Below are positions 1-16,780 of a stretch of 64,000 nt of DNA, one piece after another. Under the pieces are notes generated by a model. It did not search any database, was not told the origin of the DNA, and saw nothing but the letters and a program-made list of their open reading frames with translations. A program made the translations under genes and the position numbers. Every line of letters begins with the position of its first letter. The first letter of the stretch is position 1. This stretch comes from Comamonadaceae bacterium (GTDB lineage: Bacteria; Pseudomonadota; Gammaproteobacteria; Burkholderiales; Burkholderiaceae_C), in NCBI GenBank assembly GCA_947455465.1, contig CANGNS010000017.1, forward strand, positions 1 to 64,000, read 5' to 3'.

Positions 1-561
1 TACCGGGGCTACCACGTGTTCATGCGCGCCTTGCCCGAGATACTGCGCCAACGCCCCAATGCGCGGGTGCTGATCGTCGGCGCCGACGATGTCAGCTACG
101 GCGCCCGCCCGCCCGGCGGCCAGAAGTGGAAAGACATTTTTGCCGCCGAGGTGCGCCCCCAGATACCTGATGCCGACTGGGCGCGGGTGCATTTTTTAGG
201 GCACGTGCCCTACCAGCACTTCATACCGCTGCTGCAACTGAGCACCGTACACGTCTACCTCACTTACCCCTTTGTGCTGAGCTGGAGCCTCTTGGAGGCC
301 ATGAGCGCGGGCTGCGCCATTGTGGCCAGCGACACTCAGCCCTTAAAAGAAGCCATCGTGGACGGGCACAGCGCCATCCTCTTTCCCTTCCTTGACCATG
401 GGGCACTGGCCAGCAAGGTCTGCGCCTTGCTGCAAGAGCGGGCAAAGCGGCAAAGCCTAGGGGCCAATGCGCGGGCTTTTGCACAGGCTAACTATGACCT
501 GCGCTCGGTGTGCCTGCCAAGGCAGCTGCAGTGGGTGGGGGCGCTGGGTAATCAATCCTAA
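1..561 (+). CDS. Glycosyltransferase, GT4-like (3' part, copy 1)
   Basis: This is the C-terminal Rossmann half of a GT-B fold glycosyltransferase that would move a sugar from a nucleotide donor. The frame is open from base 1, so the 5' end lies outside the window; 186 residues are visible. The stretch YPFVLSWSLLEAMSAGCAIV followed by a conserved EAIVDG is the usual donor-binding region of GT4 enzymes, with the Glu of LLEAM in the expected place. Bases 1-60 are almost identical to 16,429-16,488 in a second copy, so the N-terminal half is probably like the one readable at 15,751-16,428. The acceptor is unknown. A role in glycosylating a surface protein or polysaccharide is only inferred from the RTX-type gene nearby. 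Confidence 0.85.
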   Translation, partial: YRGYHVFMRALPEILRQRPNARVLIVGADDVSYGARPPGGQKWKDIFAAEVRPQIPDADWARVHFLGHVPYQHFIPLLQLSTVHVYLTYPFVLSWSLLEAMSAGCAIVASDTQPLKEAIVDGHSAILFPFLDHGALASKVCALLQERAKRQSLGANARAFAQANYDLRSVCLPRQLQWVGALGNQS

Positions 562-617
562 ATATATCTTTACCGGCGCGTAATCCTCTGGGGCATATGT
601 TCACCTAAGATCACGCC

Positions 618-977
618 ATGCCAAGCCAGTTACTTAATGTGAGTGTGATGCAGCGCCTTGTGCGCTTTGTCTGCCTTGCATTGCTGGCCACACAGCTGCT
701 GAGCGGGGCCCAGCTGGTCGAGAGCGGCTTAGAGCGGGCGCAGTTTTATGCAGGCACCTGCCTGTCGGCCGATCCAGAGTGCTCCATGAGCGGGCACCAG
801 GTTAAACTTGGTGACTCCCCCAGCCACCTGCTCAATCTGGGCGTTCACCTAAGCGGCTTGCTGCCCCTGCAAGAAACACTTGAGCCCAGCCAAGCCAAAG
901 CACCTCAGGTGGCCAAGGTCAACTCGCTTGCCATCCTTCTTTTTGTGTCCTTGATAGACCACCCTCCCAAGGCCTGA
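618..977 (+). CDS. Possible small exported or membrane protein
   Basis: This is a 119-residue frame that I do not recognise. Its N-terminus reads like a signal peptide or single membrane anchor, most clearly if translation starts at the second Met (position 648), which gives MQRLVRFVCLALLATQLLSG. Two cysteines follow about 50 residues in, and a second hydrophobic stretch lies near the C-terminus. No strong ribosome binding site is visible, and the codon use is less convincing than in neighbouring genes. The gene lies 57 bases after the glycosyltransferase. It may be real, but a chance frame cannot be excluded. Confidence 0.35.
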   Translation: MPSQLLNVSVMQRLVRFVCLALLATQLLSGAQLVESGLERAQFYAGTCLSADPECSMSGHQVKLGDSPSHLLNLGVHLSGLLPLQETLEPSQAKAPQVAKVNSLAILLFVSLIDHPPKA

Positions 978-1067
978 ACATATTGTGCACGTAGGCGGTG
1001 CGCTAGTTCACCTGGCGCGCTCATCGAATGTTTTACGCAGAATGTTTTATGTAAGGGGAAGGAGCCC

Positions 1068-1601
1068 ATGGCCCCCAATATCGAAAGAGAGCGAGCGCTC
1101 GTTGATGCGCTGGCCAACGCCTATTACGAAGTGCTGGACCAGGGCTACCGCACGGGCTGCATGCTCACTGCCAGTGTGTCATGCGCGGTGCTGGAGCACT
1201 TTGGGGTGCAGGCGCAGGTCACGCCCTGCCAAGTCTGGTACAGCCTGGCGCACCACAACTACGTTGTGGGCTTTGTTGGCAGCGCCCCCCAAAAGGATAA
1301 GTGGGACGGACATGTTGTGTGCACCAGCACCAATTTCTTGCTCGATGCGGCTTTGTTCCACTTCAAACGCGAGTTTGATATGGATGTGCCTTGGGTGGCC
1401 TCTGTGCAGCGCATACCGGTGGCCAGCCAGATGATGGCCCGCTATGAGCTGCCCAGCGGCCAGAGCCTTAAGTGGCTCAACCCGCCTCCGGGCAGCGATA
1501 CGCAATACCCCGAGGTGCCCAAGGGCTTGGTGCAGGAGTTGGCGGGGAAGCTTGTTGAGCGGTTGCAGGCGGTAGCGTCAGTGCCTGAACGAAGCAGATA
1601 G
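1068..1601 (+). CDS. Hypothetical protein with conserved-looking Cys and His residues
   Basis: The gene encodes 177 residues and starts at an ATG preceded by a clear AAGGAG ribosome binding site, which decides the start. I do not recognise the family. A Cys in TASVSCAVLEHFG, a His in DGHVV and an Asp in NFLLDAALFHF occur in the order and approximate spacing seen in papain/transglutaminase-fold cysteine enzymes. That fold is an inference from pattern only. There is no signal peptide, so a cytosolic location is likely. It lies 34 bases upstream of the T7-like polymerase gene on the same strand, so the two may be transcribed together. Confidence 0.7.
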   Translation: MAPNIERERALVDALANAYYEVLDQGYRTGCMLTASVSCAVLEHFGVQAQVTPCQVWYSLAHHNYVVGFVGSAPQKDKWDGHVVCTSTNFLLDAALFHFKREFDMDVPWVASVQRIPVASQMMARYELPSGQSLKWLNPPPGSDTQYPEVPKGLVQELAGKLVERLQAVASVPERSR

Positions 1602-1635
1602 CAGTTCGACTTTTTCTGTTGGGGTTATTAGGGCA

Positions 1636-3237
1636 GTGCGAAACCAGTATGCTTTGCGACAGCACAAAAGTACTTCTTATATGACTGTTCCAGAAAAACT
1701 AATAGAAATGCTCGACGAATTAATCCCTGACTTTGCAGACGAGAAATACAAAAGATCGTTTGCACAAATGTTGTGGATGGCTGCCGGGCAAGAACATAGC
1801 CATCGTTATTACGAGAACGCGATTACCTTGCATTCCGAGGAAGTCCATAAAATGTTTAAGAATGCCAAGAATTTCTTCGATGGCAATCGCGGACACAATG
1901 GGAGATATTTTCGAGTATCGCGCTTTAGCAACTTCTCGGGTGATCCCGAGTTGGATTACACCAACGGCTACGAGCCACGTCCTTGGATGCGGGCCGTACT
2001 CAACGGATATTTGGAAGCAAATGTCGGCGCAGAGTTCAGGGATGGAAGAGGTCAACTTCACAAGCCACCAGTTTCCATTAGACGCACCGATAGCCGTGGT
2101 AACCGTATCAAGCGATGGCAAGATGTTGAAGTTCGAAATCTAATTCCAACGGTTCTCGTAAATCTTCGGCTTATGGCTGATCGCATCGATCTGATGCTTC
2201 AGGCCAATACACAAGGACAACTGCCAGAAAGCTACAAAAAGGCGTACAGTAAAAATATGAGCCAGTTGCAAGTCTATTTGGACGATACGCACACACTCAT
2301 CCGACAAGCCGAGCATTTCGGTGGCCTACCAATTCAATACGTGCAGTCCAACACGGGTCGGCTCTACGCCACGGGGGTGAACGTTCAGGGTTGCAAGCGT
2401 CAGATTCGGCATGCCGCTTTGGTCGGCTGCTATGACTACGACATTGCCGCTTGTCACTTTTCTATCCTGACGCAAATGGCGGCGAAATTCGGCCTGAAAT
2501 GCGACGCCATTGACGATTACATTGCCAACAAGGCTCAGACCCGACTGGATCTGTCTAACATGCTGGGCGTGGAAGTTGACAACGTTAAAACGGTTTTAAC
2601 GGCGATGGCGTATGGTGCACGGCAGTCACTCGACCCACGGGATGCCATTGCCAAAGAAATTGGCCAAGAAGCTGCTCAACACTTTTACGGATTGGATCTA
2701 TACAAAGCCCTCAAAAATGACATCAGCAAGGCCACAGACAAAATTCTGAAAGCGCACCCGTTGGTGAAGCAACGGTTTATCAATTCGATTGGCAAAGAGT
2801 TAATCGTCACGCGCAAGAAGCAAAAAGTAGCTTTGAAAGATATCGAGCGCCATACGAAGATGTCACATTTGCTGCAAGGGGTCGAAGCTGCCGTGCTAGA
2901 GGTCGCCGTGCGTACATTCCCCAGCAATATTGTGTTGCTTCAGCATGATGGCTTTACGACAACAGGCCCCATCGATTTGGCCGTTCTTCATGCTGCGGTG
3001 AAGGAGCAAACGGGCTACGTTTTGAAATTTGAACAGGATCTGGTCACTATGCCAGATCCCGATTTTGATGCAGATTTTGCTAGCATTAAGACAAAATTAA
3101 AGAAGCGTGAAAAAGTCAATGTACACGCGGGGTTACAGGTGTTCTGGGGGTCGCTTTCACGCACTGTAGGGGTTGGTCTTGATGACCTTCTCCCTCCGAA
3201 TCCTCTGCCTTTGGACGAAGTCGAAACTCCATTTTGA
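1636..3237 (+). CDS. Compact T7-type single-subunit RNA polymerase-like protein
   Basis: The 533-residue product carries, in order, the signature motifs of phage-type single-subunit polymerases. A DxxGR-like element reads SNTGRLYA (residues 238-245), with Ser in place of the Asp. Motif A is YDYDIAACHFSIL (266-278). Motif B, KTVLTAMAYG, has K318 and Y326-G327, the same Lys-to-Tyr spacing as K631/Y639 of T7 RNA polymerase. Motif C is LLQHDGFTT with H437-D438. T7 RNA polymerase has about 880 residues, so the N-terminal promoter/RNA-binding region here is much reduced. A family A DNA polymerase-like palm is the main alternative. The start is uncertain: GTG at 1,636 or ATG at 1,681. Base composition is clearly more AT-rich than the host core. 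Substrate and role are unknown. A hairpin array lies directly downstream. Confidence 0.75.
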   Translation: MRNQYALRQHKSTSYMTVPEKLIEMLDELIPDFADEKYKRSFAQMLWMAAGQEHSHRYYENAITLHSEEVHKMFKNAKNFFDGNRGHNGRYFRVSRFSNFSGDPELDYTNGYEPRPWMRAVLNGYLEANVGAEFRDGRGQLHKPPVSIRRTDSRGNRIKRWQDVEVRNLIPTVLVNLRLMADRIDLMLQANTQGQLPESYKKAYSKNMSQLQVYLDDTHTLIRQAEHFGGLPIQYVQSNTGRLYATGVNVQGCKRQIRHAALVGCYDYDIAACHFSILTQMAAKFGLKCDAIDDYIANKAQTRLDLSNMLGVEVDNVKTVLTAMAYGARQSLDPRDAIAKEIGQEAAQHFYGLDLYKALKNDISKATDKILKAHPLVKQRFINSIGKELIVTRKKQKVALKDIERHTKMSHLLQGVEAAVLEVAVRTFPSNIVLLQHDGFTTTGPIDLAVLHAAVKEQTGYVLKFEQDLVTMPDPDFDADFASIKTKLKKREKVNVHAGLQVFWGSLSRTVGVGLDDLLPPNPLPLDEVETPF

Positions 3238-3487
3238 CTTTAAGTTGGATTAGGTTCGGAGTTTGATGTGGTTTGAGTGCCGAGGGGTTCTTGAGCATTG
3301 TTGTCACTTGTGGTCCATTGGCAATGCCAGTCCTAAATTGGCGTCATCTTGAAACTACCCCCCCAAATACTCAACCTCAATCGGATTGGGCCGAATTTGG
3401 GCTAGTCAGTGTTCGACTAATTCGCGGAGTTGCTGCTAATTTCAAAGGGCATAAGCAATTATCCTAAGTAAGCCTTAGGTGAGCAGC

Positions 3488-3502
3488 CTCGATTTAATCG
3501 AG
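3488..3502. repeat. Hairpin repeat 1 (TTA loop)
   Basis: CTCGATTTAATCGAG folds as a perfect 6-bp stem (CTCGAT/ATCGAG) around a TTA loop. It is the first of three copies in this gap. Confidence 0.7.
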
Positions 3503-3542
3503 TTTACAAAAAACTTACACGGGTTAAGGATTGGTTCCTATG

Positions 3543-3557
3543 CGCGATTTAATCGCG
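3543..3557. repeat. Hairpin repeat 2 (TTA loop)
   Basis: CGCGATTTAATCGCG has a perfect 6-bp stem around TTA. Compared with repeat 1, both outer stem positions that changed did so on the two sides together, so pairing is kept. This points to selection on structure rather than on sequence. Confidence 0.7.
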
Positions 3558-3621
3558 GTAGAGTCAGATAAATCCATCGGTAGTTTTAATTACTTGAAGC
3601 CGCATTCTCAATACTTCGAGG

Positions 3622-3636
3622 CGCGGTTTAACTGCG
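3622..3636. repeat. Hairpin repeat 3 (TTA loop)
   Basis: CGCGGTTTAACTGCG keeps the TTA loop and a 6-bp stem in which one pair is a G-T wobble on this strand. Spacing from the previous copy is 79 bases, and 55 bases separate copies 1 and 2. The spacing is therefore irregular and unlike a CRISPR array. Confidence 0.6.
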
Positions 3637-3687
3637 GGCACAAGTGATCTGGTAACTTGGATTGACGTTATTAACTACGGTACTGCC

Positions 3688-3720
3688 CAAGTATCAAACT
3701 AGTCGCGCTTGATATACTTG
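3688..3720. repeat. Inverted repeat at the 3' end of the AbiE operon
   Basis: CAAGTATCAA (3,688-3,697) faces TTGATATACTTG (3,709-3,720), a 10-bp match with a 2-base insertion. It overlaps the last codons of the leftward gene. The 8-mer AGTATCAA (3,690-3,697) recurs at 8,218-8,225 in the palindrome at the integrase promoter, so the two ends of the integrase-to-AbiE operon share this sequence. It could be a terminator stem, a regulator site or an integrase site. No T-run follows on the minus strand. Confidence 0.45.
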
Positions 3721-4472
3721 TTCATACCTACGACCAACTCCCGGTCGGCCTTCCTCTGGGCCACTGCCTTGTTTGTCCTGTACCCCGTGGTTGTGGGCCG
3801 ACCGCTTTTGTTTCTCTGGGGTGGAATTTCTTGTACTACTGGGTTTTGTATTTTTTCTTGACCACCCCCAGCCTGCGCGATTACGGCTTGCCCCAGCACC
3901 TGTATGTGCTGCACTTGGATCACTTGGTTGCCACCGCCTTGCAGCTTTTGCAGCGTCAGTGCCGTGCGAGAAAATACATCCATCAGCCGCGCAGAGGCCC
4001 GAACCTTCTTGATGGCTACGTCTGCGTCCCTTTCCGAATTGGATTCAGCCAGCAACTCCATCGCTCTCTTGTGCCCGGCAGCCAGTTGGTGGGTCAGCAT
4101 TTTTTGGACAGCGCCCTTAGCCCCACTATCCTGCGCCGTCTCAATCCCTAGCTCCAGTACGCCAGCACGCTCAATTAAGTTAGACCTTTGGACGCTTGCG
4201 CCTAGGTTGAGCAGGTCGGAATTGTTCAGCGTCAATTCCAGCCCTGGCAGTCCTTCGTGTAGCGGCGGGACAATCTCGCCTCCAAGGCCACTTTGGAGAG
4301 GCTCAACCGGCGTCATTAAGGCATGAGCCTCCTTTTCCATCGTATTGGCCAATTCCAAGTCAAACCCCTGGCGCACCCGGTCATGTGCTGGCGCCAAGGC
4401 CCTAAGCCGCTGCGCCTCTTGCTGCTGGTGTATGGCAGTAACGACGCGGTTTATGCATGCTCTGTCTTCCAT
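3699..4472 (-). CDS. AbiE-operon third gene, mobile-element protein of unknown function
   Basis: The gene encodes 257 residues when started at the ATG whose A overlaps the last base of the abiEii stop (TAATG), an arrangement typical of translational coupling. A start 11 codons upstream (4,505) is also open. No enzyme motif is visible. The middle is helical, with LMDVFSRTALTLQKLQGGG and a Gln/Val-rich QVIQVQHIQVLGQAVI segment. That pattern resembles small conserved proteins I recall beside integrases in other proteobacterial mobile elements. The C-terminus is basic, with many Arg and Lys, and may bind nucleic acid. Two-gene AbiE modules normally end with abiEii, so this coupled third gene is an unusual addition. 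Confidence 0.7.
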   Translation of the reverse strand: MEDRACINRVVTAIHQQQEAQRLRALAPAHDRVRQGFDLELANTMEKEAHALMTPVEPLQSGLGGEIVPPLHEGLPGLELTLNNSDLLNLGASVQRSNLIERAGVLELGIETAQDSGAKGAVQKMLTHQLAAGHKRAMELLAESNSERDADVAIKKVRASARLMDVFSRTALTLQKLQGGGNQVIQVQHIQVLGQAVIAQAGGGQEKIQNPVVQEIPPQRNKSGRPTTTGYRTNKAVAQRKADRELVVGMNKYIKRD

Positions 4473-5329
4473 TATTGCCTCGCTATTAATAGAGGTAATA
4501 GCCAAATGCGCAGGCTTTGGATAATGTCAGCCAATGCCATGTCTTCTAACTGGTTCTTCTTGAGAAAACTCTGCCATTGGCGCTGCTTGGATTGATCGCT
4601 AGAGAATTCGTCGCTGAGTCCTACGGGTAGGCTTGCCGGCAATAAACGTCCACGACGCTCAAATGTTGCCGCGATTGCATGGCGCAATACCTCGAGATCA
4701 AATTCACCATGTTGGTGCAACACCCATAAATCGAAGTAGTCTTTCATGCGTGAGTTGGCAATACCCAGCGTAACAATGGTCTCTGCCTTTTCTGCGACAA
4801 CCGTGTATCTTGGGTATACCCTGAGTACGGGTGCAGAAAATTCCTTCAAAAGTACAGGGTACGTAGCCAATTCTGGGGCTGGTGTGACCGCGTCACCGTA
4901 GCCGATGTCGACCTGGACAGCGGTGCGGGCGTTACCCAACAGGGCAGTCATGGTGACCCGGATACCTCCGTAGTTGGCTTGCTTGCGGATTTCTTCTGCT
5001 GCAACACTGTCGGCCAAGAAGACCATTGCATCATCAGCCTGCACATGACATAGGTCTTTGAATACATCAATGACCAATGGCAATTCGGCCAAGCCAAACC
5101 CCAATAGATCAATGTCACGTGTCGGGCGCAGGGGCACATCAAACCACAGATCAAACAGCAAAGCGCCCTTGAGCAAGAAGCTGTCGGCATGCTTAGATAT
5201 GTGCAGCCTGTATAGCAATCTCTCCAGTGTGAACTTGGTGAGCACCTGCCCGTAGTCACGACCCTGCGCCTTGGCAAGGTTCAGGAGGCGGGCCTGCACC
5301 GACGCAGCCAAATTCTTTTGGTCGCTCAT
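4472..5329 (-). CDS. abiEii: AbiEii-type nucleotidyltransferase toxin
   Basis: This is the toxin of a type IV abortive-infection toxin-antitoxin pair, a minimal nucleotidyltransferase expected to stop growth when phage infection or loss of the antitoxin releases it. The product has 285 residues. KGALLFDLWFDVPLRPTRDI carries the nucleotidyltransferase signature: Gly with hydrophobic residues, then the metal-binding Asp pair in TRDIDLLGF. VVAEKAETIVTLG and RMKDYFDLWVL further on are the conserved AbiEii/AbiGii motifs with the catalytic Lys and Asp. The start is the ATG overlapping the antitoxin stop (ATGA at 5,326-5,329). An ORF start 15 codons upstream would lie inside the antitoxin gene and is not needed. 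It is translationally coupled to both neighbours. Confidence 0.93.
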   Translation of the reverse strand: MSDQKNLAASVQARLLNLAKAQGRDYGQVLTKFTLERLLYRLHISKHADSFLLKGALLFDLWFDVPLRPTRDIDLLGFGLAELPLVIDVFKDLCHVQADDAMVFLADSVAAEEIRKQANYGGIRVTMTALLGNARTAVQVDIGYGDAVTPAPELATYPVLLKEFSAPVLRVYPRYTVVAEKAETIVTLGIANSRMKDYFDLWVLHQHGEFDLEVLRHAIAATFERRGRLLPASLPVGLSDEFSSDQSKQRQWQSFLKKNQLEDMALADIIQSLRIWLLPLLIARQ

Positions 5330-5922
5330 GTCAGTGATTCCAAATAAGCTCGCATAACGTTCTCTACCCGACATACCTTGGCATAGCGGTGCAGTTCGTC
5401 CATTGTGATCCGTTTTGCATTCCAGGCCTCACGTAGGGCCTCCATCGCTACATCCAGACCAATCTTGTGGCGAAATTTAAAGCAGTCAGCAATGGTCTTA
5501 CCCAGATCGGTAACTGTGATATTCATGTCGCCTTCAATGGTCATAGATTCAATGCCTTCATGTAACAAGTTCTGCGTAGATCGAATGACGTGAAGTGGTG
5601 GGTAGTGAATTTTTGGTGCTCTGGCCTTGTGGTCGATGGCGATCCAGACCTCGTGCGGACTCTGTGTTGTCAGTCCGTGCAGCCTTAGCGCAGTGAGTAG
5701 GCAAAAGACAACCTTTGGTGATCGACTGGCAACTTGGGCCAAGCCAGCATCCTGTGTTGGAGCGTAGTTGGCTGGCGCATACAGACCTCTTGCGATGCGC
5801 AGTATTTGGCCCTCCCGTGTCATGGATGCGATGGCAACGCGCGTATATCCCATAGCCTGTAGGTCGCGGGTGCGCATCAATCCGGTCATGGGTGGAGGGT
5901 AGGTTGCCCGAGGTTCAATCAT
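5326..5922 (-). CDS. abiEi: AbiEi-type antitoxin and autorepressor
   Basis: This 198-residue protein is the antitoxin partner of AbiEii. The N-terminal part (about residues 12-60, from LMRTRDLQAMGYTRVAIASM) is the winged helix of AbiEi proteins, and RIARGLYAP is its wing. The remainder is the AbiEi C-terminal domain that neutralises the toxin in characterised systems. Members of the family repress their own operon by binding inverted repeats. A matching 12-nt inverted repeat lies 10 bases upstream (5,932-5,975). The ATG at 5,922 is used here; internal Met codons at residues 12 and 16 are possible starts. Confidence 0.92.
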   Translation of the reverse strand: MIEPRATYPPPMTGLMRTRDLQAMGYTRVAIASMTREGQILRIARGLYAPANYAPTQDAGLAQVASRSPKVVFCLLTALRLHGLTTQSPHEVWIAIDHKARAPKIHYPPLHVIRSTQNLLHEGIESMTIEGDMNITVTDLGKTIADCFKFRHKIGLDVAMEALREAWNAKRITMDELHRYAKVCRVENVMRAYLESLT

Positions 5923-5931
5923 TAACTAGCC

Positions 5932-5975
5932 TTACAATTTGTCGGCAAATATATATTATCTATGACATTTTGTAA
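5932..5975 (-). promoter_or_regulatory. Predicted AbiEi operator and promoter
   Basis: TTACAATTTGTC (5,932-5,943) and GACATTTTGTAA (5,964-5,975) are inverted arms matching at 10 of 12 positions, separated by an AT-rich spacer. Read on the minus strand, the spacer contains a TAATAT-like -10 element. Position just upstream of abiEi fits the negative autoregulation known for AbiEi proteins. Confidence 0.6.
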
Positions 5976-6148
5976 ATTGGCAATCGGTGTAATGCCCTGA
6001 GCGGCTTTATGGAGTCGCGACCGAGCAGTGCAATGCAGGCTTGGATAACCTTTGCGATCGAGAATGTTGCATCTGGTGCTCCACCCAACCTACACAGTGC
6101 TTGGCACCTTGGAGGGGTAGATAAATCACATCTATTTCGATGGCCATG
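5976..6148. other. Short intergenic gap between the ParB-like gene and the abiE promoter
   Basis: No gene or clear terminator is seen here. The leftward integrase/ParB-like transcript must either end in this gap or read into abiEi. Confidence 0.4.
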
Positions 6149-6964
6149 TTAGGACTTTCGAAAATCTTGCTCCTGCATCTGACGGTAGGAGTCACATTGC
6201 TTTTGTAACCGCTTGACCATCTTCACTGCTTCGGCTTTTTCATCCATCAACGCAGTAAAGCGCACTTCCAGTGCAACGTATTGATTATTGAGCCGCTTGA
6301 TCTCTGCATACGCGGCTGCTAAACGATCATCGGCTTGCAAAATATTTTCTATTGCTTCCCGGTCGGCCTGCTCAGCCGACTCTGCTGCACGCAGTTCCTC
6401 CTCATTTGGCCCAAAATCTTCGTAATTGCCATGGCTGGATTCCGAAGTCTGTAGTCGGACTACATCACTCCTACTTGCAGTTTTTGCTTGCGCCGAATTT
6501 TCTCGGTTGATTCGTTGCTTTTCTTTCGTTTCTGGTCTACGAAGGGCGCCTACGAAAGATCGCGATACGTGGCACAGATTAGCAATCTCATGATCTGATT
6601 TACTTTTGTGGCGATCCAAACTCAAAGCTGTTGTAACTTGTTTCGCTTTTGTTGCATTGTCTCGATTTAGGCCATGGGTCGCGTTAGCCCCTAAGGCTAA
6701 ATCTTGAGCGTCATCTTTGGTGCCGGTTATCGCTTGTATGCATACTTCTTGGAGGCCCAATTCCATCATCGCGGCATGGCGATGAAATCCATCCCATAGC
6801 CAGTGACTTTGGCCATCAAAAACCGTCCGCAAAGGGGGAAACGGCTCCTGATTAGAAATGTCAATTTTGTATTGACATACGATATCTGGATCAATACGCT
6901 CACGCAACTGATGTTCGGATGAAAGTCGGATCGCGTCAAGAGAAATCCAATGGTTTTCTTTCAT
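6149..6964 (-). CDS. ParB/sulfiredoxin-fold DNA-binding protein of the integrative element
   Basis: The product has 271 residues. The N-terminal ParB-like nuclease/CTPase fold is recognised by WLWDGFHRHAAMMELG (about residues 55-70), the counterpart of the family's DGxHR box. A KorB/ParB-like helix-turn-helix region follows (SDHEIANLCHVSRSFVGALR). The C-terminal third is an acidic and then strongly heptad-like coiled coil (about 190-270). The gene begins 14 bases after the integrase stop, with GGGAG upstream of its ATG, so it is in an operon with the integrase. Such proteins often accompany integrases and may act in element maintenance or control. No ParA partner is present, so classical partitioning is unlikely. 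Confidence 0.82.
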   Translation of the reverse strand: MKENHWISLDAIRLSSEHQLRERIDPDIVCQYKIDISNQEPFPPLRTVFDGQSHWLWDGFHRHAAMMELGLQEVCIQAITGTKDDAQDLALGANATHGLNRDNATKAKQVTTALSLDRHKSKSDHEIANLCHVSRSFVGALRRPETKEKQRINRENSAQAKTASRSDVVRLQTSESSHGNYEDFGPNEEELRAAESAEQADREAIENILQADDRLAAAYAEIKRLNNQYVALEVRFTALMDEKAEAVKMVKRLQKQCDSYRQMQEQDFRKS

Positions 6965-6978
6965 GGTGCGGTCTCCCT

Positions 6979-8178
6979 TTAGCGCATATAGGTTGCCTGA
7001 TCGGCAAGCATTGGCATTGGCAAGAACATTCCCCCAACAGCCCGCGTCGCCGCATTAGACGCATCCAGCAGGGTGTGCTGTGACAGATGGCTATACCGCT
7101 GAGTCGTCTTGATCTGGGTATGCCCCAGGAGGTGCTGCACCTCGTAGAGCGTGCGCCCGGCATTGACTAAAAATGATGCAAAACTGTGTCGCAGGTCATG
7201 TATCCGGAGATCTGCCAGGCCCGCAGCCCGCCTTGACGTGTCCCACGACCCTTGGACCGTCACATACGGCTTCTGGGTCTTGGGGTTGGCAAACACCCAA
7301 GCGCACCCCCCTATACGGGGAACCGACTGGAGCACCGAAATAGCCCCATCGCTCAGGGGAACATGCCTAGCCCTCCCCAACTTGGTCGTGTGGATGCGCC
7401 AAGAGCGCCGCTCAAGGTCAACATCCTCCCAGCGGGCGTCCAGCACCTCGCGTTTTCTGGCCCCCGTCACTATGAGCATGGGCACGATGTAGCGCAGCAT
7501 AGTGTTCTCGGACTTGAGCAGTACGCCGTAGAGCCTTTGGGCCTCCTCGGTGCTCAGGTAGCGTGATATCTGGTTGTCCTCCTTGAGCAGAGGGTAGCCG
7601 GCAGTGGGGTTCTTGCTTATGCCTGGCGTCTCCCACTTCAGGGCCAGATTGAACATGTAGCGCAGCAAAATGAGCAGGCGGTTGCACGATCCCGGCGCGT
7701 GGGTTACTTGGTGTCTGGACAGGAGGGTGATCAGGTCGGCCTTTGTGACCTCATCTAGGTGCTTATTGCCCCAGTGACGTTCGACGTGGTTTTTATAGAG
7801 CGCCAAATCAATGGACCAACTCCGTTTGTAGCCTTTGACGTAGGGTATGTACTGTGAAAACACGAACTCGGACAGGGTGGGGCAGTGCTTGGCATCAGAC
7901 TGATGCTGGCGGATATCTTCTCCTAAGACTGATCGTGACCTGAGCGTGTTGGCCATCTGCCGTGCTTGGTCTAAACGAAGATCATCGGCGTGGCCAATTT
8001 TGTGCTGGCGCTGCACCTTGCGTTGATCGACGTAGCGCAGCCCAAAGACCCGACTTCCGCTGGGTCGGACGTCCAGAACCAGCCCCCTGCACCCTGTATC
8101 GAAGTAGGTAATTTTGGCCATACCGGCGGGGCAAGCGGCACTGGCAACAAAGTCCTTGGTAAGCAGCACTTTCGGCAT
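6979..8178 (-). CDS. Tyrosine site-specific integrase
   Basis: This 399-residue recombinase should integrate and excise the element. The N-terminal arm-binding domain is followed by a core-binding SAM-like domain (about 100-190) and the catalytic domain. The catalytic residues R241 (VTGARKREVL), H327 and R330 (HDLRHSFAS), H353 (GHTQIKTTQ) and the nucleophile Y362 (RYSHL) are all present, so the enzyme looks intact. It is the first gene of a leftward run that continues with the ParB-like gene and the AbiE genes. No tRNA gene lies at either end, so the target cannot be read directly. Confidence 0.95.
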   Translation of the reverse strand: MPKVLLTKDFVASAACPAGMAKITYFDTGCRGLVLDVRPSGSRVFGLRYVDQRKVQRQHKIGHADDLRLDQARQMANTLRSRSVLGEDIRQHQSDAKHCPTLSEFVFSQYIPYVKGYKRSWSIDLALYKNHVERHWGNKHLDEVTKADLITLLSRHQVTHAPGSCNRLLILLRYMFNLALKWETPGISKNPTAGYPLLKEDNQISRYLSTEEAQRLYGVLLKSENTMLRYIVPMLIVTGARKREVLDARWEDVDLERRSWRIHTTKLGRARHVPLSDGAISVLQSVPRIGGCAWVFANPKTQKPYVTVQGSWDTSRRAAGLADLRIHDLRHSFASFLVNAGRTLYEVQHLLGHTQIKTTQRYSHLSQHTLLDASNAATRAVGGMFLPMPMLADQATYMR

Positions 8179-8196
8179 GAATTTAACCCTAACTAT

Positions 8197-8225
8197 TTGA
8201 TAGTATTGATATCATATAGTATCAA
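8197..8225. promoter_or_regulatory. 29-nt palindrome between integrase and XRE-like regulator
   Basis: Outer arms TTGATA and TATCAA enclose inner TAT and ATA blocks around the centre GATATC, forming a long imperfect palindrome. It lies between the divergent integrase (starts 8,178) and regulator (starts about 8,251-8,269), the usual place for an operator controlling both promoters. The right arm shares AGTATCAA with the inverted repeat at 3,688-3,720. Confidence 0.6.
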
Positions 8226-8250
8226 TTAAAGTAAGTAAAGACTTTTTTAC

Positions 8251-8538
8251 TTGCCATACAATTTCGGAGTGATTTCGCACCAAACGCCCCAGCACATAGC
8301 CTCCGCAATCCGAGCCGCTCGTGGGGCCTTGTCGTGGTCACAGGTGGAGTTAGCAGCCCACTCGGGTGTCTCTACGCCGACGATCGCAAGGATCGAGGCG
8401 TGCTTGATTAGTCCCAAGATGGAGACGGTCAGCAAGATTTTTCGGGCGCTGGAAGAGGGGGGTGTCTATTTCGCATGGACGGCTCCGGGCGTGTACACCA
8501 TGAACGCCTCGCTGGTTAAGCGCACGACGCCTCGTTAA
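8251..8538 (+). CDS. XRE/Cro-type helix-turn-helix regulator
   Basis: This small protein of at most 95 residues has a clear HTH_3 domain: AARGALSWSQVELAAHSGVS, then TPTIARIEACLISPKMETV and a final helix. The short C-terminal tail (FAWTAPGVYTMN) is typical of phage- or element-borne XRE proteins of this kind. The start is uncertain, with TTG at 8,251 or GTG at 8,269 and no strong ribosome binding site. It is divergent from the integrase across a 29-nt palindrome, so it probably represses integrase and itself. Confidence 0.8.
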   Translation: MPYNFGVISHQTPQHIASAIRAARGALSWSQVELAAHSGVSTPTIARIEACLISPKMETVSKIFRALEEGGVYFAWTAPGVYTMNASLVKRTTPR

Positions 8539-8748
8539 GTGCTTCTCTGGGATGGTCTGTAGGCAGCCTGTAGGCGGACGCACAGGAGAATCCTTAGTTC
8601 CACGCTGTCGGCGAACAGGCAAAAAACGCAAAATGTTGGCTTTTAATGCGTACCAACGTGCCCAGCTGTAGGCTATCGATTTAATATCACTTAAGATACT
8701 TTAAAAATCTAATAAAATCAATAACTTATCTTTTTTGGTCCTAGGTGT
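8539..8748. other. AT-rich junction between the element and the RTX-type gene
   Basis: No gene is supported here. CGATTTAAT at 8,677-8,685 repeats the core of the hairpins at 3,488 and 3,543, but the right stem has decayed. The composition shifts sharply at about 8,745, where RTX-type coding sequence begins. This may be the right boundary of the inserted DNA. Confidence 0.45.
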
Positions 8749-8778
8749 ATCACTACCGGCGGTGGCAACGACACGGTC

Positions 8779-11700
8779 GTGGTCTCCGGCACCGGAAACA
8801 ACACAATCAGCGTGGGCGCGGGCACCGACATCGTCACCGCTGGCTCGGGTAATGACACGATCATAGTTGGCTCTGCTGCACTGGACACGACAGACCGCAT
8901 AAATGGAGGCGACGGCGTGGACACGCTGGTTATCAGTGGCGACGGCAACGTTATTAATTCCACCAACGTGGTTGGCATTGAGAAGTTGGTTCTCAACGGA
9001 ACAACGGTCACCATTGCAGACTTGACTTCCTTGGCTGCCCTGCAATCCATCAGTGGTAAGACAACTAGCAGCGAAGTCACAATCACCGTTGCCAACGGTG
9101 ATGTGGTGGATCTGACGGGCCTAGCGCTTACCACGCTCAAGAGCATAACTCTTTCTGGCACTGCTACCACGGTCACTCTTAAGGCAAACGCTGCCGATTT
9201 TGACGCTGTTGCTGCTATCTTGAAGACTAGTGGGGTCACGACGGTTAACCTGTCTACTGACATCGCAGGCTTCAAGGCGCTCAGCACTGCTGACACTGGC
9301 ATCAACGGAACTAAGACAGTAACTGCTTCTGTGGCTGACCTGATAGCCAACAAGTCATCACTAACAGGCGCAACATTGGCGGTCAGCGGAAGCATTACCG
9401 GCGCTGACGCATTGGCCTTGGCCAACGCAGGCATCACTGCCTCGAGCACGGTAAGCATGTCCGTGGCTGACGTAATCACGACATTGCAGTACCCCGATCA
9501 GGTTGCTGCTTTGTCTGGCGCTAAGCTGCAGATCACTGGAAACGCCACTTATGCGCAGTACGCCACAATTATTGGTAACACCACCATTGCTTCGGCCCTG
9601 GGAGCTGCTTATAGCTCGTCGACTGGTGGATACAAAGGTGTCGCGATCGTCGATACAACTACTAACTTGGCTGCGGCCGCTACCGCTATCAACACGGCAA
9701 TCACGGCAACTACGTCACGCACAGTAGGGACGGCTGCCATCAGCGGGGGGGCTGCATTGTCTGTGTCAGACGCTACGGCATTAAAGACCATTACTGGCGT
9801 AACAGGCTCATATACTGTCTCTGATAGTGCGTCCGCCGTAAACTCGGTAATTACAAGTGTTAGTTCGTTGCCTGCTGTTCTTACAGGAGCTGCATCAGTT
9901 TCACTGCTCAGTGGTAGCCGCACAGCCTCAACTGTCGCTGACGCGTTGGAGCTCAAAGCCCTTGGCTCTAAACTCGTTGGTGGCTATGACTTGGCTATCT
10001 CTACCGGAGATGCTACTGGCTCTGCAGATGGCCTGAGTGCAGTTGCAGGCGCAACTAAGGCGACCCTGACGGGCACGGTTTCTGTTTCCCAGCTGAACCA
10101 GATTCTGGCTGCCAACAGCGCAGCAACGGTGTCCATACTCAAAGACAGTCCACTCAATTTGGTTGCTGGCTCCTCCTTGCTCTCGGCAGCTGCCCTTGAC
10201 CTACAGATTGAAGGAACAGTTACTACTGCTCAAGCCAACGTGATTAACCCCGCGTTGAAGACTATCCTCGCTAAAACCGGGGCACACACCGCATATGGCC
10301 TTGCTGGTGTCGTATACACAAATGGTTACGCAATCTCTGATGCCTCTGCTGCGATCGTAAGTAGTGCTAACGCGACCACAGTTAAGGGCGCCAAGGCAGT
10401 TACAGTGACTAACGCTATGTCGTTGGCGGACGCGACTTCGCTTCGTGCATTGGCTGACGCCTCAAATTCGGACAATCTTGCACCCTCGGCACTTACCTAC
10501 AGCGTATCAGACTCGGCTTCGACACTCGCCTCTGCTTTATCCGCATCCAGTAACACGACCACAGTTTCTGTTTTGGCGGGTGCGACGGTTGTTGCTGCCA
10601 CCGGCACTGCTACGGTTGCGCAAGCTAAGATTCTGGGAACTACGTATAACTCGGCAGCGCAGGTTGACTCCTGGGCGATTAGCGATACCGTTGCCAAACT
10701 TTTTGGATCGGCGACTGGAACTTCTCTTGTTTCTGACGTTACAACCGCAAAGACATTGGCGACATCACTTTCGGTGCAAGGAGCCGTTTCAGTTGCTCAA
10801 ATGACTGCGCTGAAAGCTGTGACAAATACGGCCAGCACACCGGCACTTATTTTCGACAACGTTTACGCCATCTCTGACAGCTTAGGCGCGCTTGCCACCC
10901 AGACAAGTAACAGCGCAGTACCGTTAGTCGCAGCGACCTCTATTACTGCGACGGGTACAGCAGCGGTGTCTAATCTGGCTAGCCTGAAAACTCTGAACGA
11001 TGCCTTGACCTTGGCAGGAAAGGCAGCTGTCAGCTACACCTTGAGCGATACATACGCCAACGTTGTGGGGACTTCTGCGCTGGGTAGTTCAACTGCTACG
11101 GTCGTGGCGACTGCCAAGTCGGCGAGCGCTATTACGGTTACTGGGAATTTCACAGCTAGCGATACCAGCGTTATCAGTGCAGCCAATTTACTGGACCTGG
11201 CTGACAAAGCTGGAACTGCGAATTACTCTGTCGTTGTGACCTCGGCCGCAACAGATATCGCCACCCAACAGGCAGGCGTCCTCAACAATTCAAAGATCAG
11301 CAAAATCATCGCGAGCGATGCCAGCTTGTCTGTATCTGGCGCAAATACCTTGTTGGCTGCCGTTGGTACAGCGGTTGCTTCGAAAGTTGAATACAACCTC
11401 GTTGATACTTCAGCTAACCTGCTCGCAACGGCAGACAGCGGTACGGTGCTTGGAGCGAAGAATATTCAAGCGTACGACTCGACAACCAGTGCCACACAAC
11501 TGGTCAGTGTTGCTGATGCGCAAAAGCTCCTCAACCTTACAGGGGCGAGCGGAACTGTTACCTACAGTGTTTCTGACACATACGCTAACGTTGCAGCTAA
11601 CCCAACGGTAGCAGATGGTGCTAGTGTAATTACCGTTACTAATAGTGCTCTGACTGCCGCTCAGTACGACAATCTGATCAATTTAGGCAAGGCAACTTCA

Positions 11701-14700
11701 ACGGTCACTACCACGGTAACCCAGAAGAACGTTAGCGATACCGCGGCAAATATCTCATCGGCAACGGTTCAAACGCTTGCAGCGGCTGGAACAATAAGTA
11801 CAACGGATGTAGCCAAGGTCAACCTGACAGTCGCGCAGGCTGAAGCAGCCAACAGTGGTACTGTATGGAAATTTGCAACATCCGGGCTGCCTGGCGGTGT
11901 ATCTAAAGTGCAAATTGCTATTGTCGACACCGCAGCGAATCTCCTTGCTGCGCTGGCGAACTCCACAACGTCCTATACCAACCATACGCAAGATGCATTT
12001 CTACTGGCGTCTGGCACTCAGAGCAATGGCGCTCAGTATTTGGTTAAAACCTCTGATGTCGCTACGTTGACTGCTGCCCAGATGACCAGCTTGACTGGAA
12101 TTACGAACGTCTCGGCAAGCTACAACCTCTCTGATACAGCTGGCTCATTGACAAATAGTAGTAACGTGGTAATTGCTGGCGTCTCTACAGCAGGCTCCGT
12201 GACCGTTACCAGCTCAAGCAGTGATCTAACAACAGCAGCTAAGGCCAAAGCCATCTACGACGCAAACAGCAAAGTGTCTTTTGCAGTCATAACTGACGCA
12301 GCAACGGCCATCGGTGCGTCGACTGGATCTGGAAGTAGCCTGGTTTACACCTATGCTGCGGCTGAGTCCAAAGCAAGTTCTGTTGTAGTGACCGGGACCC
12401 CTTCCGTGTCACAAATGACAGCAGCTAAAGCGGCAGTCGGCACGACCCCAATAACTTACAGCTTGTCTGACACAGCTGAGAACTTAAACACCACAGCTGG
12501 TAAGGCGCTGTTGGCTGGTGCAACTGCTATTACGCTGGATACGTCGAGTACTGCAGCTATGGTCTCTGAAGCGGTTTACTTGAATCAATTCGATAGCAAG
12601 ATATCTGCTGACTACAAAGTTGCAGGCACAGCAGCTGACTTGGTAGCCAACCTGCAGGCTGTGAAAGATGCTGCTGGCACGAGTGCTAATGTTTCGGTCA
12701 GCAGCGGCAAAATGTCTGTCGCGCAGTACACGACCCTCAAGGGCGCCTTTGCGGCGAATTTACAGGGTAACTCAACTACCGGTGGCGTCCATTACGAAGT
12801 TACTGATTCCGCCTCTGCCATTGCGACTTACCTTGGGGCAGGTAATACCCTGGCATCCATAAGTAGCGTTGCTGGAACCTTTGCGCTGACGGCAGATGCT
12901 ACCGTTACTGCTGCTCAAGCGGCGACGCTGCAAGCGGCTAGTATTACTGCTGTTAAGGTGGTAGACACAGCTGCAAACTTGTTGGCTGTTAGCCTCACCG
13001 GTCAGACAAGCTATACGGTTACTGATACAGTCTCTCTGGGTGTCGCTAGCCAGCTCTTTTCTGCTCAGTCTGGGGTCAACATTAACTCGATCGCAACTAC
13101 GGCAAGTAGCTTCGCCACCGCATACACCTTTAATAGCAACGCAGGTGTCGCTGCCCAAAAGGGTGCAATGCTCAAAGCAAAGAGCCTGACTGTGGACGGA
13201 GTTGCCGTTACCCTGGGCGCTAAGGATGATATCCTGTTGGCAGGATCCACGTACAAAGGCAAGATCATTGGTACTGTCAGTGAGATCAACGCACTGCCTG
13301 CCAATATCAAAGCAGCTGCCGGTTACGTCATCGTCGACGCCTACGCAAACATCACTGCACCGGCGAACACAGCCTTGGTTGCAGCAGGATCGGGCTACAT
13401 CATTAAGGACACTGGAGACAACTTGACCGCAGCTAGCACTACGGTGTTGGCCTCAGCAGCTGGCTGCCTGGGAATTGAATTCCAGGGCGATGTCAGTGTT
13501 GCTACTGCTAGCACTGTGCTTGCTAGAACGAATGCCACCGCGTTGTACAGTTTGGCAGACTCTGCGGCAAACCTCGTACCCTCTGGATCTGTTGCTTCAA
13601 GTGTGGCACTCGCTACAAAGGTGACGGTGACGGGTACAGCAACCACTGCACAGGCTGATTTGCTGTTCGCTGCAAATACAGCAACGACCGTTAATGTGGT
13701 GGACACGGGATCATTAATCGCCGCCTCCAGCAATATCAACAAGATGGCCTCCATCGTTGCTGATTCAAACCTGAGCGTAGCAGGCATACAGGCGATCAGT
13801 CTGACTGAAGCCAACACCTTGGTTCGTAACAAGGCCGCTGGCGCATCCTTGACGTTCAACGTTGATGCAAGTGCCGCAGATATAGCTGCTGCCGTGACAA
13901 GCACCTCGACAACAGCTGCTAATGCTGCAACGCTGTCTGCCGCTGGGACTATCACCGTAACTAACGGTGCATCAGGAACGGCAGCGCTCGCACCTGCTGC
14001 CAAGTCATTGGCAACGCTAAATATTACTGGCGGTTATGCAGTCTCTGACACTGCAGCTAATTTGACTGACACTTCTGTAGTGGGACTGTCAGATCTGGCC
14101 AAGGCAACAGTCGTAAAGGTTGTTAACAACGCGACGGATGCCACCTATGCGCAAGCGGTGATATTGGAAGGCCTTGCAAATATGGAGAAAGGGACCGGTG
14201 CTAACGCTTCCAAGTTCAACATCGATATTGGAGACACTGCCAAGGCGCTGGCCTCTGCCTCGGCGGCTGTGTTGGATGCCATTACTAGCGGTAACAGCGT
14301 TAGTGTGCTGAGCTACACGACTGCTCTATCAGCGGCTGAGGCTTCCAGCCTGGCGGCCGTGGATGCAGCTTCGACAAACTTGAGTACAACTGCTGCGGGC
14401 GTGATAGTTTCGGATACATCTGCCAACATACTTGCGCCTGCCAATGCCTCGGCTGTTGCAGCTGTCGGTAGTGTTACTGTTACCGATACTGTATCTGTCG
14501 CAACGTTGAGTCAGGTCAAGACTGCGGCTACCGCAGCCTCCTCGATAGCTTACAAAATAGCTGACTCTGCTTCTAACGTAATTGTTGCTGGTGGAACGAC
14601 GGTAAACAATGCCACGTCAGTGCAGGTTGCGGGAGTTGTGACCGTGCAAGATGCAGCCTCTATCTACAGCTTTGCTGCGGCCACTGGCGGTGTTGATCCA

Positions 14701-15558: not shown

Positions 15559-15572
15559 TAACGGTATATTCT

Positions 15573-15592
15573 CCCCTCACCTCGGTGGGGGG
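15573..15592 (+). repeat. Stem-loop after the RTX-type gene
   Basis: CCCCTCACCTCGGTGGGGGG can form up to nine pairs with one G-T pair. It lies 14 bases after the stop codon and may stabilise the mRNA end in tandem with the terminator downstream. Confidence 0.5.
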
Positions 15593-15610
15593 CGGAAATT
15601 AGCTTCAGCA

Positions 15611-15642
15611 CCCCCGTCTCTCAAAAGGAGGCGGGGTTTTTT
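15611..15642 (+). terminator. Rho-independent terminator of the RTX-type gene
   Basis: A GC-rich stem (CCCCGTCTC facing GGAGGCGGGG across TCAAAA) is followed by a run of six T. It is a well-formed intrinsic terminator 52 bases after the stop. Confidence 0.85.
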
Positions 15643-15671
15643 CATTGCAGCCAAGCTTTTGGTCAGGCTTT

Positions 15672-15687
15672 AACATCACGTGGTGTT
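15672..15687. promoter_or_regulatory. E-box-like palindrome upstream of the second glycosyltransferase
   Basis: AACATCACGTGGTGTT is an imperfect palindrome with one mismatched pair, 63 bases upstream of the pseudogene start. It may be a regulator site for the glycosyltransferase transcript. The regulator is unknown. Confidence 0.35.
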
Positions 15688-15750
15688 AGCGATTTTTGAA
15701 CGCGTACAGCCAATCACGGCTGTGCCTAAAATAGACAAGAGGACCAGCCC

Positions 15751-16780
15751 ATGAACATCCTCTTCATCCACCAAAACTTTCCCGGCCAGTTCAAACACCT
15801 GGCCCCGGCCTTGGTCGCCCAAGGCCACAGCGTTGCGGCCATGGTCATGCAAAAGGCTGCCAGCACCCACTGGCAGGGCGTGCGCCTGTACCCCTACAGC
15901 GCCAGGCGGGGTAGCACGGCAGGTGTGCATCCGTGGATAGCAGACTTTGAGACCAAGACCATCCGCGCCGAGGCCTGCTTTGGGGCCGCGCTGGCGCTGC
16001 GCGAGGGGGGCTACACGCCTGAGGTCATCATCGCCCACCACGGCTGGGGCGAGAGCATGTTCCTTAAAGAGGTCTGGCCCAAGGCCCGCCTAGGCATCTA
16101 CTGCGAGTTCTACTACCGAGGCGAAGGGGCGGACGTGGGCTTTGACCCCGAGTTCCCGTCCAGCGACCCGGGCGAAGCCTGCCGCCTGCAACTCAAGAAC
16201 CTCAACAACCTGCTGCACTTTGAGCTTGCCGATGCCGCCGTCTCCCCCACCGCCTGGCAGGCCAGCACCTTCCCCGAGCCCTTTGCCTCCAAGATCACGG
16301 TAGTACACGACGGCATAGACACCCAAGCAGTAGCGCCCAAGGCCGATGTTCGAGTCCCCCTGACTAAAGACCTCACCCTCACACGAGAGGACGAGGTCAT
16401 CACCTTCGTCAACCGCAACCTGGAGCCTTACCGGGGCTATCACGTGTTCATGCGCGCCTTGCCCGAGATACTGCGCCAACGCCCAAGGCGCGGGCTGCGC
16501 CATTGTGGCCAGCGACACTCAGCCTTTACAGTAAGCCATTGTGGACGGGCTGACCGGGCTGCTGGTGCCGTTCTTTGACCCTGCTGCGCTGGCCGCCAAG
16601 GTGTGCGCGTTGTTGCAAGACCTGGCCAAGCGCCAAAGCCTGGGCGCCCATGCACGCGCGTTTGCGCAGGCCAACTACGACTTGCGGGCCGTGTGTTTGC
16701 CCGCTCAGTTAGAGTGGGTCGGGGCCTTGGGCTCCGAGTCCGCCTCAGTTAACATCTCCACGGAACCTTCCCATTCATGA
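15751..16780 (+). pseudogene. Glycosyltransferase, GT4-like (copy 2, decayed)
   Basis: The N-terminal half is intact (MNILFIHQNFPGQFKHLAPA onward, about 245 residues) and aligns to a GT-B fold glycosyltransferase. At 16,488-16,494 the sequence jumps: relative to copy 1 (bases 1-561), 244 bases between two GCGCGGG heptamers are missing and a nearby C is lost, shifting the frame. The remaining C-terminal part continues in another frame from about 16,499. It also carries an in-frame TAA at the position of a Glu codon in copy 1 (PLKEAIVDG becomes PLQ-stop-AIVDG). The last codons overlap the ATG of the next gene (ATGA at 16,777), a relic of coupling to the cyclophilin gene. Confidence 0.9.

Follow-up and report, generated by a model that had tools for sequence, protein, structure and literature searches.

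A gene close to the start of the window, by which we mean the whole 64,000-nucleotide stretch of Comamonadaceae DNA that was analysed (contig CANGNS010000017.1, assembly GCA_947455465.1), very probably encodes a TV-Pol-type polymerase of the family A fold class, which is borne by a mobile element, works on a single-stranded template, its most likely role being to prime and/or extend the DNA of that element. The class label TV-Pol-type is held with reservation because the arginine of the RxxxK motif in the fingers is missing. The original prediction had described the gene as a compact T7-type RNA polymerase. The observation was sound and the name partly wrong: the 533-aa protein is indeed compact, far below the 883 aa of T7 RNA polymerase, and it does fall, as a nucleic-acid polymerase, in the broad class shared by T7 RNA polymerase and DNA polymerase I (Pol I), but it is best described as an unannotated TV-Pol-type polymerase of the mobile-element kind. 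An unannotated gene family is thereby placed in a known polymerase class, and the reading as a T7 RNA polymerase is corrected. The coordinates of the gene, its elements and its neighbours are collected in Table 1.

Table 1. Window positions of the polymerase gene, of the elements recognised within it and of the neighbouring genes.
Feature	Positions	Strand	Details
Probable TV-Pol-type polymerase gene	1636..3237	+	533 aa, GTG start; alternative start at ATG codon 16
N-terminal domain, approximately residues 1-172	1636..2151	+	Helices and short strands in the model; no match in Pfam
Predicted thumb, two long helices (residues 174-192 and 208-228)	2155..2319	+	From the model; position as described for TV-Pols
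Predicted beta-hairpin with TGRL, residues 234-246	2335..2373	+	R242 corresponds to R668 of E. coli Pol I
Motif A, residues 266-278, YDYDIAACHFSIL	2431..2469	+	D269 corresponds to D705; H274 at the position of E710
Predicted fingers, helices 290-297, 299-310 and 314-325, then Y326 G327	2503..2616	+	From the model and the alignment
HLLQGVEA, residues 411-418	2866..2889	+	Q414 G415 correspond to Q849 G850 of Pol I
Motif C, residues 434-442	2935..2961	+	H437 D438 correspond to H881 D882
Conserved gene, convergent with the polymerase gene	3699..4505	-	Also adjoins the closest homologue (L035)
AbiEii toxin of a type IV toxin-antitoxin pair	4472..5374	-	PF08843, E 1.2e-43
AbiEi antitoxin	5326..5922	-	PF13338, E 1.5e-8
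Phage-type tyrosine integrase	6979..8178	-	PF00589, E 3.1e-30; PF13356, E 1.4e-10

The four motifs from which the original prediction was drawn, namely the GR element SNTGRLYA (residues 238-245), motif A, KTVLTAMAYG (318-327) and LLQHDGFTT (434-442), are all present in the order given, and comparison with control sequences confirmed that a serine replaces the first aspartate of the DWRGR element of T7 RNA polymerase. These motifs are not a product of chance, because seven residues (G241, R242, D269, K318, E417, H437 and D438) are invariant in all 29 aligned family sequences, the 533-aa protein included. This alignment omits the split genes L025 and L034, the partial matches L030 and L047, the cut or out-of-frame L046, the repeats L027 (for L042), L026 (for L045), L044 (for L025), L049 and L063 (both for L038), and the short loci L009-L023 and L056-L057. 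By its match to D705 of E. coli Pol I, D269 is the putative metal-binding aspartate, and catalysis would involve two metals. Of the residues D267 and D269 that had been proposed for mutation, D267 is not catalytic, its column varying among D, E, N and S across the family, whereas D269 does not vary. The HFS of motif A had been taken as a mark of T7-type enzymes, which does not hold: it lies at D+5 to D+7 in the 533-aa protein and at D+8 to D+10 in T7 RNA polymerase, and the same stretch reads HFS, HFA, HYA, HYS, HFD or HWQ, or is without the histidine, in the relatives (D-x4-H is kept in 20 of the 29 sequences). The spacing from lysine to tyrosine is as it was described, but E. coli Pol I has the identical spacing and also the HD of motif C. 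Since the named motifs are common to the family A DNA polymerases, they cannot separate T7 RNA polymerase from Pol I.

No functionally named family was returned for the protein by Pfam, PHROG or NCBIfam, and sequence searches against solved structures gave nothing useful. For ten relatives the matches were weak or to PHROGs without assigned function, among them phrog_34692, which is filled by gp30 of Ma-LMM01 and is matched by the protein of the Polaromonas plasmid pH8NP1 at E 1.1e-5. The plasmid records name the Polaromonas relatives "hypothetical protein" or "Clp protease N-terminal domain-containing protein"; the latter name may stem from a Clp_N match in pH8NP1's protein, which is weak, falls under the curated cut-off and was treated as spurious. 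Upstream of the GTG start no clear ribosome-binding site was seen, an AGGG standing merely 2 bases before it, and promoter and terminator scans remained at the level of shuffled sequence.

DNA and RNA polymerases were compared as profiles in a matched test, in which both sides were taken from the same four phages (T7, SP6, phiKMV and P-SSP7). With an 18-sequence profile of close relatives, the DNA polymerases were matched at a probability of 50% (E 1.6e-4) and the RNA polymerases at 0.6% (E 0.1); with the 29-sequence profile the values were 43% (E <= 2.5e-4) and 0.6%, respectively. Unrelated controls (four families of two to four sequences each) gave 0.1-1.5%, or 0.1-0.4% with the 29-sequence profile. 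Addition of the N4 and E. coli enzymes to the DNA side raised the probability to 88% for the 18-sequence profile and to 94% for the 29-sequence profile; the value of the latter against six family A DNA polymerases is 94.3%, with E 1.1e-7 over 218 columns. A 12-sequence profile matched five phage DNA polymerases only weakly (11%, E 0.0026) and four RNA polymerases at 0.2%. In the 29-sequence comparison with E. coli Pol I the following residues are paired: R242/R668, Q251/Q677, R258/R690, D269/D705, H274/E710, V314/R754, K318/K758, T322/F762, Y326/Y766, G327/G767, Q414/Q849, G415/G850, H437/H881 and D438/D882. The alignment of the narrower 18-sequence profile drifts off register at motif A and at D438, and the pairing at these two places therefore rests on the 29-sequence set.

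The structure of the protein was predicted with AlphaFold2 from a 12-row alignment restricted to loci from the related-locus search and without L037 (which has one unknown residue) and L046, the rows of L042 and L045 ending where their tblastn match ends. The model has a mean pLDDT of 79.5 and a pTM of 0.67, with block means of 88-95 for residues 231-370, 85 for 371-390, 56 for 391-400, 80 for 401-410 and 90-96 for 411-470. In the model the elements follow each other as thumb, arginine-bearing hairpin, palm and fingers, which is the order of family A, the three predicted fingers helices coming after the palm strand 266-270. For the earlier check on whether the motifs fall in the active site, the evidence is this order of predicted elements. 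A structural match to a polymerase palm, proposed earlier as a check, was found by Foldseek among family A DNA polymerases: 74 PDB matches had E <= 0.001, the best 50 of 250 were all family A DNA polymerases, and the best of the matches listed was a Pol I structure (E 7.9e-8), although the TM-scores by query length to the DNA polymerases among these best 50 of 250 were only 0.32-0.41. In the viral library the best matches were uncharacterised phage proteins (top E 1.3e-15), and virophage replication proteins appeared within the first ten; a helicase/primase/polymerase of the Qinghai Lake virophage was matched at E 3.9e-8 and a DNA replication protein of Zamilon virophage at E 4.3e-8.

These results bear directly on the T7 reading, according to which a single-subunit RNA polymerase would transcribe the genes of the element from promoters of its own. 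In its favour, the succession of the motifs is compatible with T7, and the equivalents of E710 and F762 are missing, as they are in T7 RNA polymerase, where G542 and M635 stand at these positions. Against this, the profile match to the RNA polymerases (0.6%, and 0.2% with 12 sequences) is at the level of unrelated controls, no RNA polymerase occurs among the best 50 of 250 PDB matches, the hairpin carries TGRL as in Pol I instead of DWRGR, and the protein is shorter by far. The T7 reading was rejected on the matched profile tests together with the fold search, and it is very unlikely.

Relatives of the gene were found on two Polaromonas plasmids, in 11 phage records (Microcystis and Desulfovibrio), in 13 loci recovered when 84,980 species genomes were scanned by pattern, and in IMG/VR on two ring-like contigs and one contig carrying the Simplicispira gene. 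Of the Polaromonas plasmids pW9NP1 and pH8NP1, REP regions have been cloned and found to replicate in Polaromonas (PMC6015842). Three of the phage records were used (L005, L006 and L007), of which L006 and L007 are 98% identical and are counted as two. With the own genome counted each time, matches were obtained in 1 of 399 genomes of the order (single-protein query), 11 of 399 of the family (three-sequence query), and 1 of 369 of the class and 6 of 398 of the phylum (12-sequence query), tallies in which some matches are to more distant subfamilies and the queries differ. The tree, in which the deep branches are weak and the rows long, intermingles members from plasmids, rings and chromosomes. 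Among 31 loci, which differ in length, a resolvase-like cluster has members in nine and a ParA cluster in six; integrases lie near other relatives, and the 2008 paper on TV-Pols records comparable neighbours (PMC2579912). A viral search with the single 533-aa protein and scans with subfamily B gave no match, and a scan with the close relatives of L048 returned only L048 and the Simplicispira contig again.

The two ring-like contigs are small. L048 (1-10864) is 10.8 kb long with 55-base identical ends, and besides its TV-Pol-type gene it matches PHROGs for the small and large terminase subunits, portal, head protease, major head protein and ParA; by eye, no tail gene and no further replication gene was recognised in its ORF list. 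The contig as a whole has the look of a small plasmid satellite that encodes a capsid. Its terminase is similar to terminases carried by plasmids (best 71%, on a 41 kb Pusillimonas plasmid), and no near DNA match to L048 was found in the phage collection. L008 (1-11098) has 127-base identical ends, a TV-Pol-type gene and a resolvase-family gene, and one further gene is, by eye, tail tape-measure-like. The genome of the window itself encodes another polymerase, from a distant subfamily (G000 contig C1, 54181-55788; L002 913-2520; L033 9382-10989), with the motifs WEYDIRSSV, SFGAR and NVHDA. The profile of this second polymerase and three relatives matched the family of the 533-aa protein at a probability of 99% (E 6e-18).

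In four relatives (L003, L004, L025 and L036) a search with the L036 copy as query found a gene of 123-133 aa that lies directly upstream of the polymerase gene and is read from the strand of that gene. L003 and L004 are the Polaromonas plasmids, L025 is 11.9 kb long with 91-base identical ends, and L036 (4.6 kb) is presumably a plasmid as well, its contig end reading like an insertion sequence. Three of the four proteins match PHROG 378 (single strand DNA binding protein) at E 3.2e-5, 0.0015 and 0.0057; the fourth gave no match to it. In NCBIfam the L036 copy resembles a model for a phage replication protein (E 3.3e-7), with a score far under that model's cut-off, and a structure predicted from one sequence reached a pLDDT of 39.6. 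The gene is absent from the rings L048 and L008, and a scan with the SSB-like alignment gave no match. All examples in the available text of a survey of PolA-SSB primases are from Bacillota (Rice, 2023; PMC10061031), and the plasmid-type pairs, lying outside this phylum, may therefore extend the survey. The pairing of an SSB-like protein with the polymerase in these four plasmid-type relatives may well be new, and we regard it as a lead from sequence comparison and not as proof. A further gene of 203-255 aa is common to the same four relatives; it lies downstream of the polymerase gene, at about 0.1-0.3 kb in L004, L025 and L036 and at 2.4 kb in L003, and its L036 copy had nothing significant in Pfam or NCBIfam. 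In the window, the place upstream of the polymerase gene is taken by a 177-aa ORF (1068-1601) that ends 35 bases before it; by eye it resembles a Cys/His protein of papain or transglutaminase style, and it had no match in Pfam or NCBIfam.

The polymerase gene lies in a region of lower G+C content, with 49-57% in positions 1-16000 and 61-69% beyond. The contig begins at window position 1, and the left end of the island is outside the view. The earlier statement that no phage structural or replication genes lie nearby stands for structural genes, none of which was found by Pfam in nine nearby ORFs, but a phage-type integrase is present, and it possibly belongs to the same island or element as the polymerase gene. 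Flanking repeats of at least 18 bases that would resemble attachment sites were not found in positions 1-9000, where two short direct-repeat pairs lie inside genes. The conserved convergent gene beside the polymerase gene has a counterpart, within the set of 31 loci, in L035 alone, the closest homologue (49% identity). It evolves as a minus-strand coding gene, with 86, 62 and 126 mismatches at codon positions 1-3 over 206 codons, and it was found in 1 of 200 genomes of the family, the own one. Several other features of the surroundings were recorded. Two related glycosyltransferase genes (16-561 and 15751-16578) stand on either side of the region; positions 1-67 and 305-548 of the first match adjoining parts of the second, which seems to be about 240 bases short with its frame changed. 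An ORF at 6149-6964 (271 aa) looks, by eye, like a protein of ParB type and had no significant match in Pfam or NCBIfam. A repeat-rich ORF of 2259 aa (8779-15558) resembles, by eye, a secreted surface protein, and a large ORF of similar style occurs in L035 (6138-9074).

This neighbourhood raises the question of whether the polymerase serves in defence, acting against phages or plasmids instead of copying its own element. An AbiE pair lies about 1.2 kb from the polymerase gene in the window, another lies about 4-5 kb from the subfamily-B relative L031, and type I restriction genes occur near L024 and L026. A defence role was also raised for related primases, as far as the available text goes (Rice, 2023; PMC10061031). 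The relatives, however, are carried on plasmids of 7-12 kb, where they stand behind the SSB-like gene, and in phage-like rings of 11 kb, and TV-Pol elements had already been recorded in restriction-rich integration hot spots (PMC2579912), so that a defence role is unlikely.

It could also be that the gene is a remnant of a decaying element without present function. The contig starts at window position 1, neither an SSB-like gene nor a resolvase was seen beside the polymerase gene, and some relatives look broken: an insert of about 3.6 kb interrupts L034 (455-4102, genome G769), which belongs to the second subfamily, L046 is cut, and L040 has no N-terminal part and stands beside a transposase-like ORF. 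The 533-aa frame, on the other hand, is full-length and every residue invariant in the 29 is intact, which makes decay very unlikely. The description of the polymerase as "domesticated or element-borne" is accordingly kept in its second half, as the family is found on mobile elements; of domestication there is no sign, because the family-invariant residues are intact and the distribution of the gene is patchy.

As an enzyme of a mobile element, the protein would be a compact right-hand polymerase that joins nucleotides on a single-stranded template, which may be held by the N-terminal domain or by a partner protein. Its proposed role is the priming, the extension, or both, of element DNA during replication or transfer of the element; for priming we argue from analogy with the CCPol-MP primase and from the prediction made for TV-Pols in 2008. 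The choice of sugar is a separate matter. Position 274 is H in 20 of the 29 family sequences, V in 4, A in 2, Q in 2 and N in 1, and never E, and phenylalanine at position 322 occurs in 1 of the 29. The absence here of both residues by which Pol I rejects ribonucleotides, the glutamate and the phenylalanine, which are kept in the staphylococcal enzyme, looks new. With the equivalents of E710 and F762 missing, use of NTPs would be possible, and this is the live remainder of the idea of an RNA polymerase. The mostly proteobacterial branch to which the protein belongs, which has motifs of its own in D-x4-H (20 of 29) and E417 (29 of 29), could accordingly comprise sugar-relaxed or ribonucleotide-using primases of PolA type, provided in the plasmids with a dedicated SSB-like protein encoded upstream, a speculation to which we give a small but real chance. 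If it were true, these would be primases making RNA or mixed primers, intermediate in function, though not by descent, between the enzymes Pol I and T7 RNA polymerase, and PolA-SSB pairs would exist outside Bacillota. Should an enzyme without the E710 and F762 equivalents prime with NTPs, it would be a small natural enzyme in which to study what separates the DNA polymerases of this class from its single-subunit RNA polymerases. Compact systems for this purpose are available in the small plasmids and the phage-like rings of 11 kb on which the gene is found. To our knowledge, CCPol is the sole TV-Pol that has been assayed, and it differs from the 533-aa protein at the sugar-selecting residues.

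Among the known systems, T7 RNA polymerase shares with the 533-aa protein the broad class, the spacing from lysine to tyrosine, the HD of motif C and the missing E710 and F762 equivalents, and differs in having DWRGR where the protein has SNTGR, in its much greater length, in giving no profile match above the controls and in its absence from the listed fold matches. E. coli Pol I is closer, with counterparts of R668, D705, K758, Y766, Q849, H881 and D882 in register, but no nuclease domain was found in the protein, and E710, F762 and R754 are replaced by H274, T322 and V314.

The CCPol-MP and PolA-SSB primases of SCCmec and other Bacillota elements are described, in the available text of two papers (PMC7581432; PMC10061031), as family A domains on mobile elements, which is the arrangement seen here. 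The staphylococcal enzyme CCPol is a TV-Pol that can elongate existing primers and, together with its partner MP, synthesise DNA primers de novo; dNTPs are its preferred substrates, and it has the equivalents of E710 and F762 according to the available part of the report (PMC7581432), whereas the 533-aa protein is without both. Compared with the PolA-SSB primases as far as they are described in the available text, the SSB-like gene of the relatives lies upstream and not downstream, none stands beside the polymerase gene in the window, and a linked helicase was not found among the nine window ORFs scanned.

The closest known class is that of the TV-Pols, a family founded on proteins of Ma-LMM01, Sputnik, several bacteria including a Thauera species, and others (Iyer, Abhiman and Aravind, 2008; PMC2579912). 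They are carried by transposons, plasmids and viruses, have resolvases, integrases or transposases as neighbours and occur in restriction-rich integration hot spots (PMC2579912), so that the earlier remark that a described system of this kind was not known is answered; work on TV-Pols in Betaproteobacteria was not seen among the papers listed for the terms tried in the open-licence PMC literature. The founders are linked to the protein by sequence: a single BLASTP comparison with gp30 of Ma-LMM01 gave 27% identity over 172 aa (E 1e-9), tblastn in the phage collection matched Ma-LMM01 at E 3e-3, and the homologue of Thauera sp. 28 (L043) was matched by tblastn among candidate stretches at E 7e-53. 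Two differences concern parts that are described for some TV-Pols. The N-terminal domain consists of helices and strands in the model, and an all-helical one was predicted for a subset of the family (PMC2579912). The D5-like helicase that is fused or adjacent in a subset was not found by Pfam among the nine window ORFs scanned; near relatives, L038 has a gene for a DEAD/ResIII helicase and L043 one for an AAA ATPase, neither named D5. Several further features are those of the class. The arginine-bearing hairpin precedes the palm, with R242 in 29 of 29 sequences and paired with R668; the palm has its two conserved aspartates, D269 and D438, likewise in 29 of 29; three predicted fingers helices carry the invariant lysine; and the protein matches no nuclease domain, indeed no Pfam family at all, and has a mobile-element setting. 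For the thumb, which in TV-Pols consists of two antiparallel helices, two long helices are predicted in the right place. In the RxxxK motif K318 is kept in 29 of 29, while the arginine four positions before it is found in only 2 of 29 and is V314 in the 533-aa protein. This arginine is not treated as decisive for membership, because gp30 of Ma-LMM01, a named founder of the TV-Pol family, also has valine in that column.
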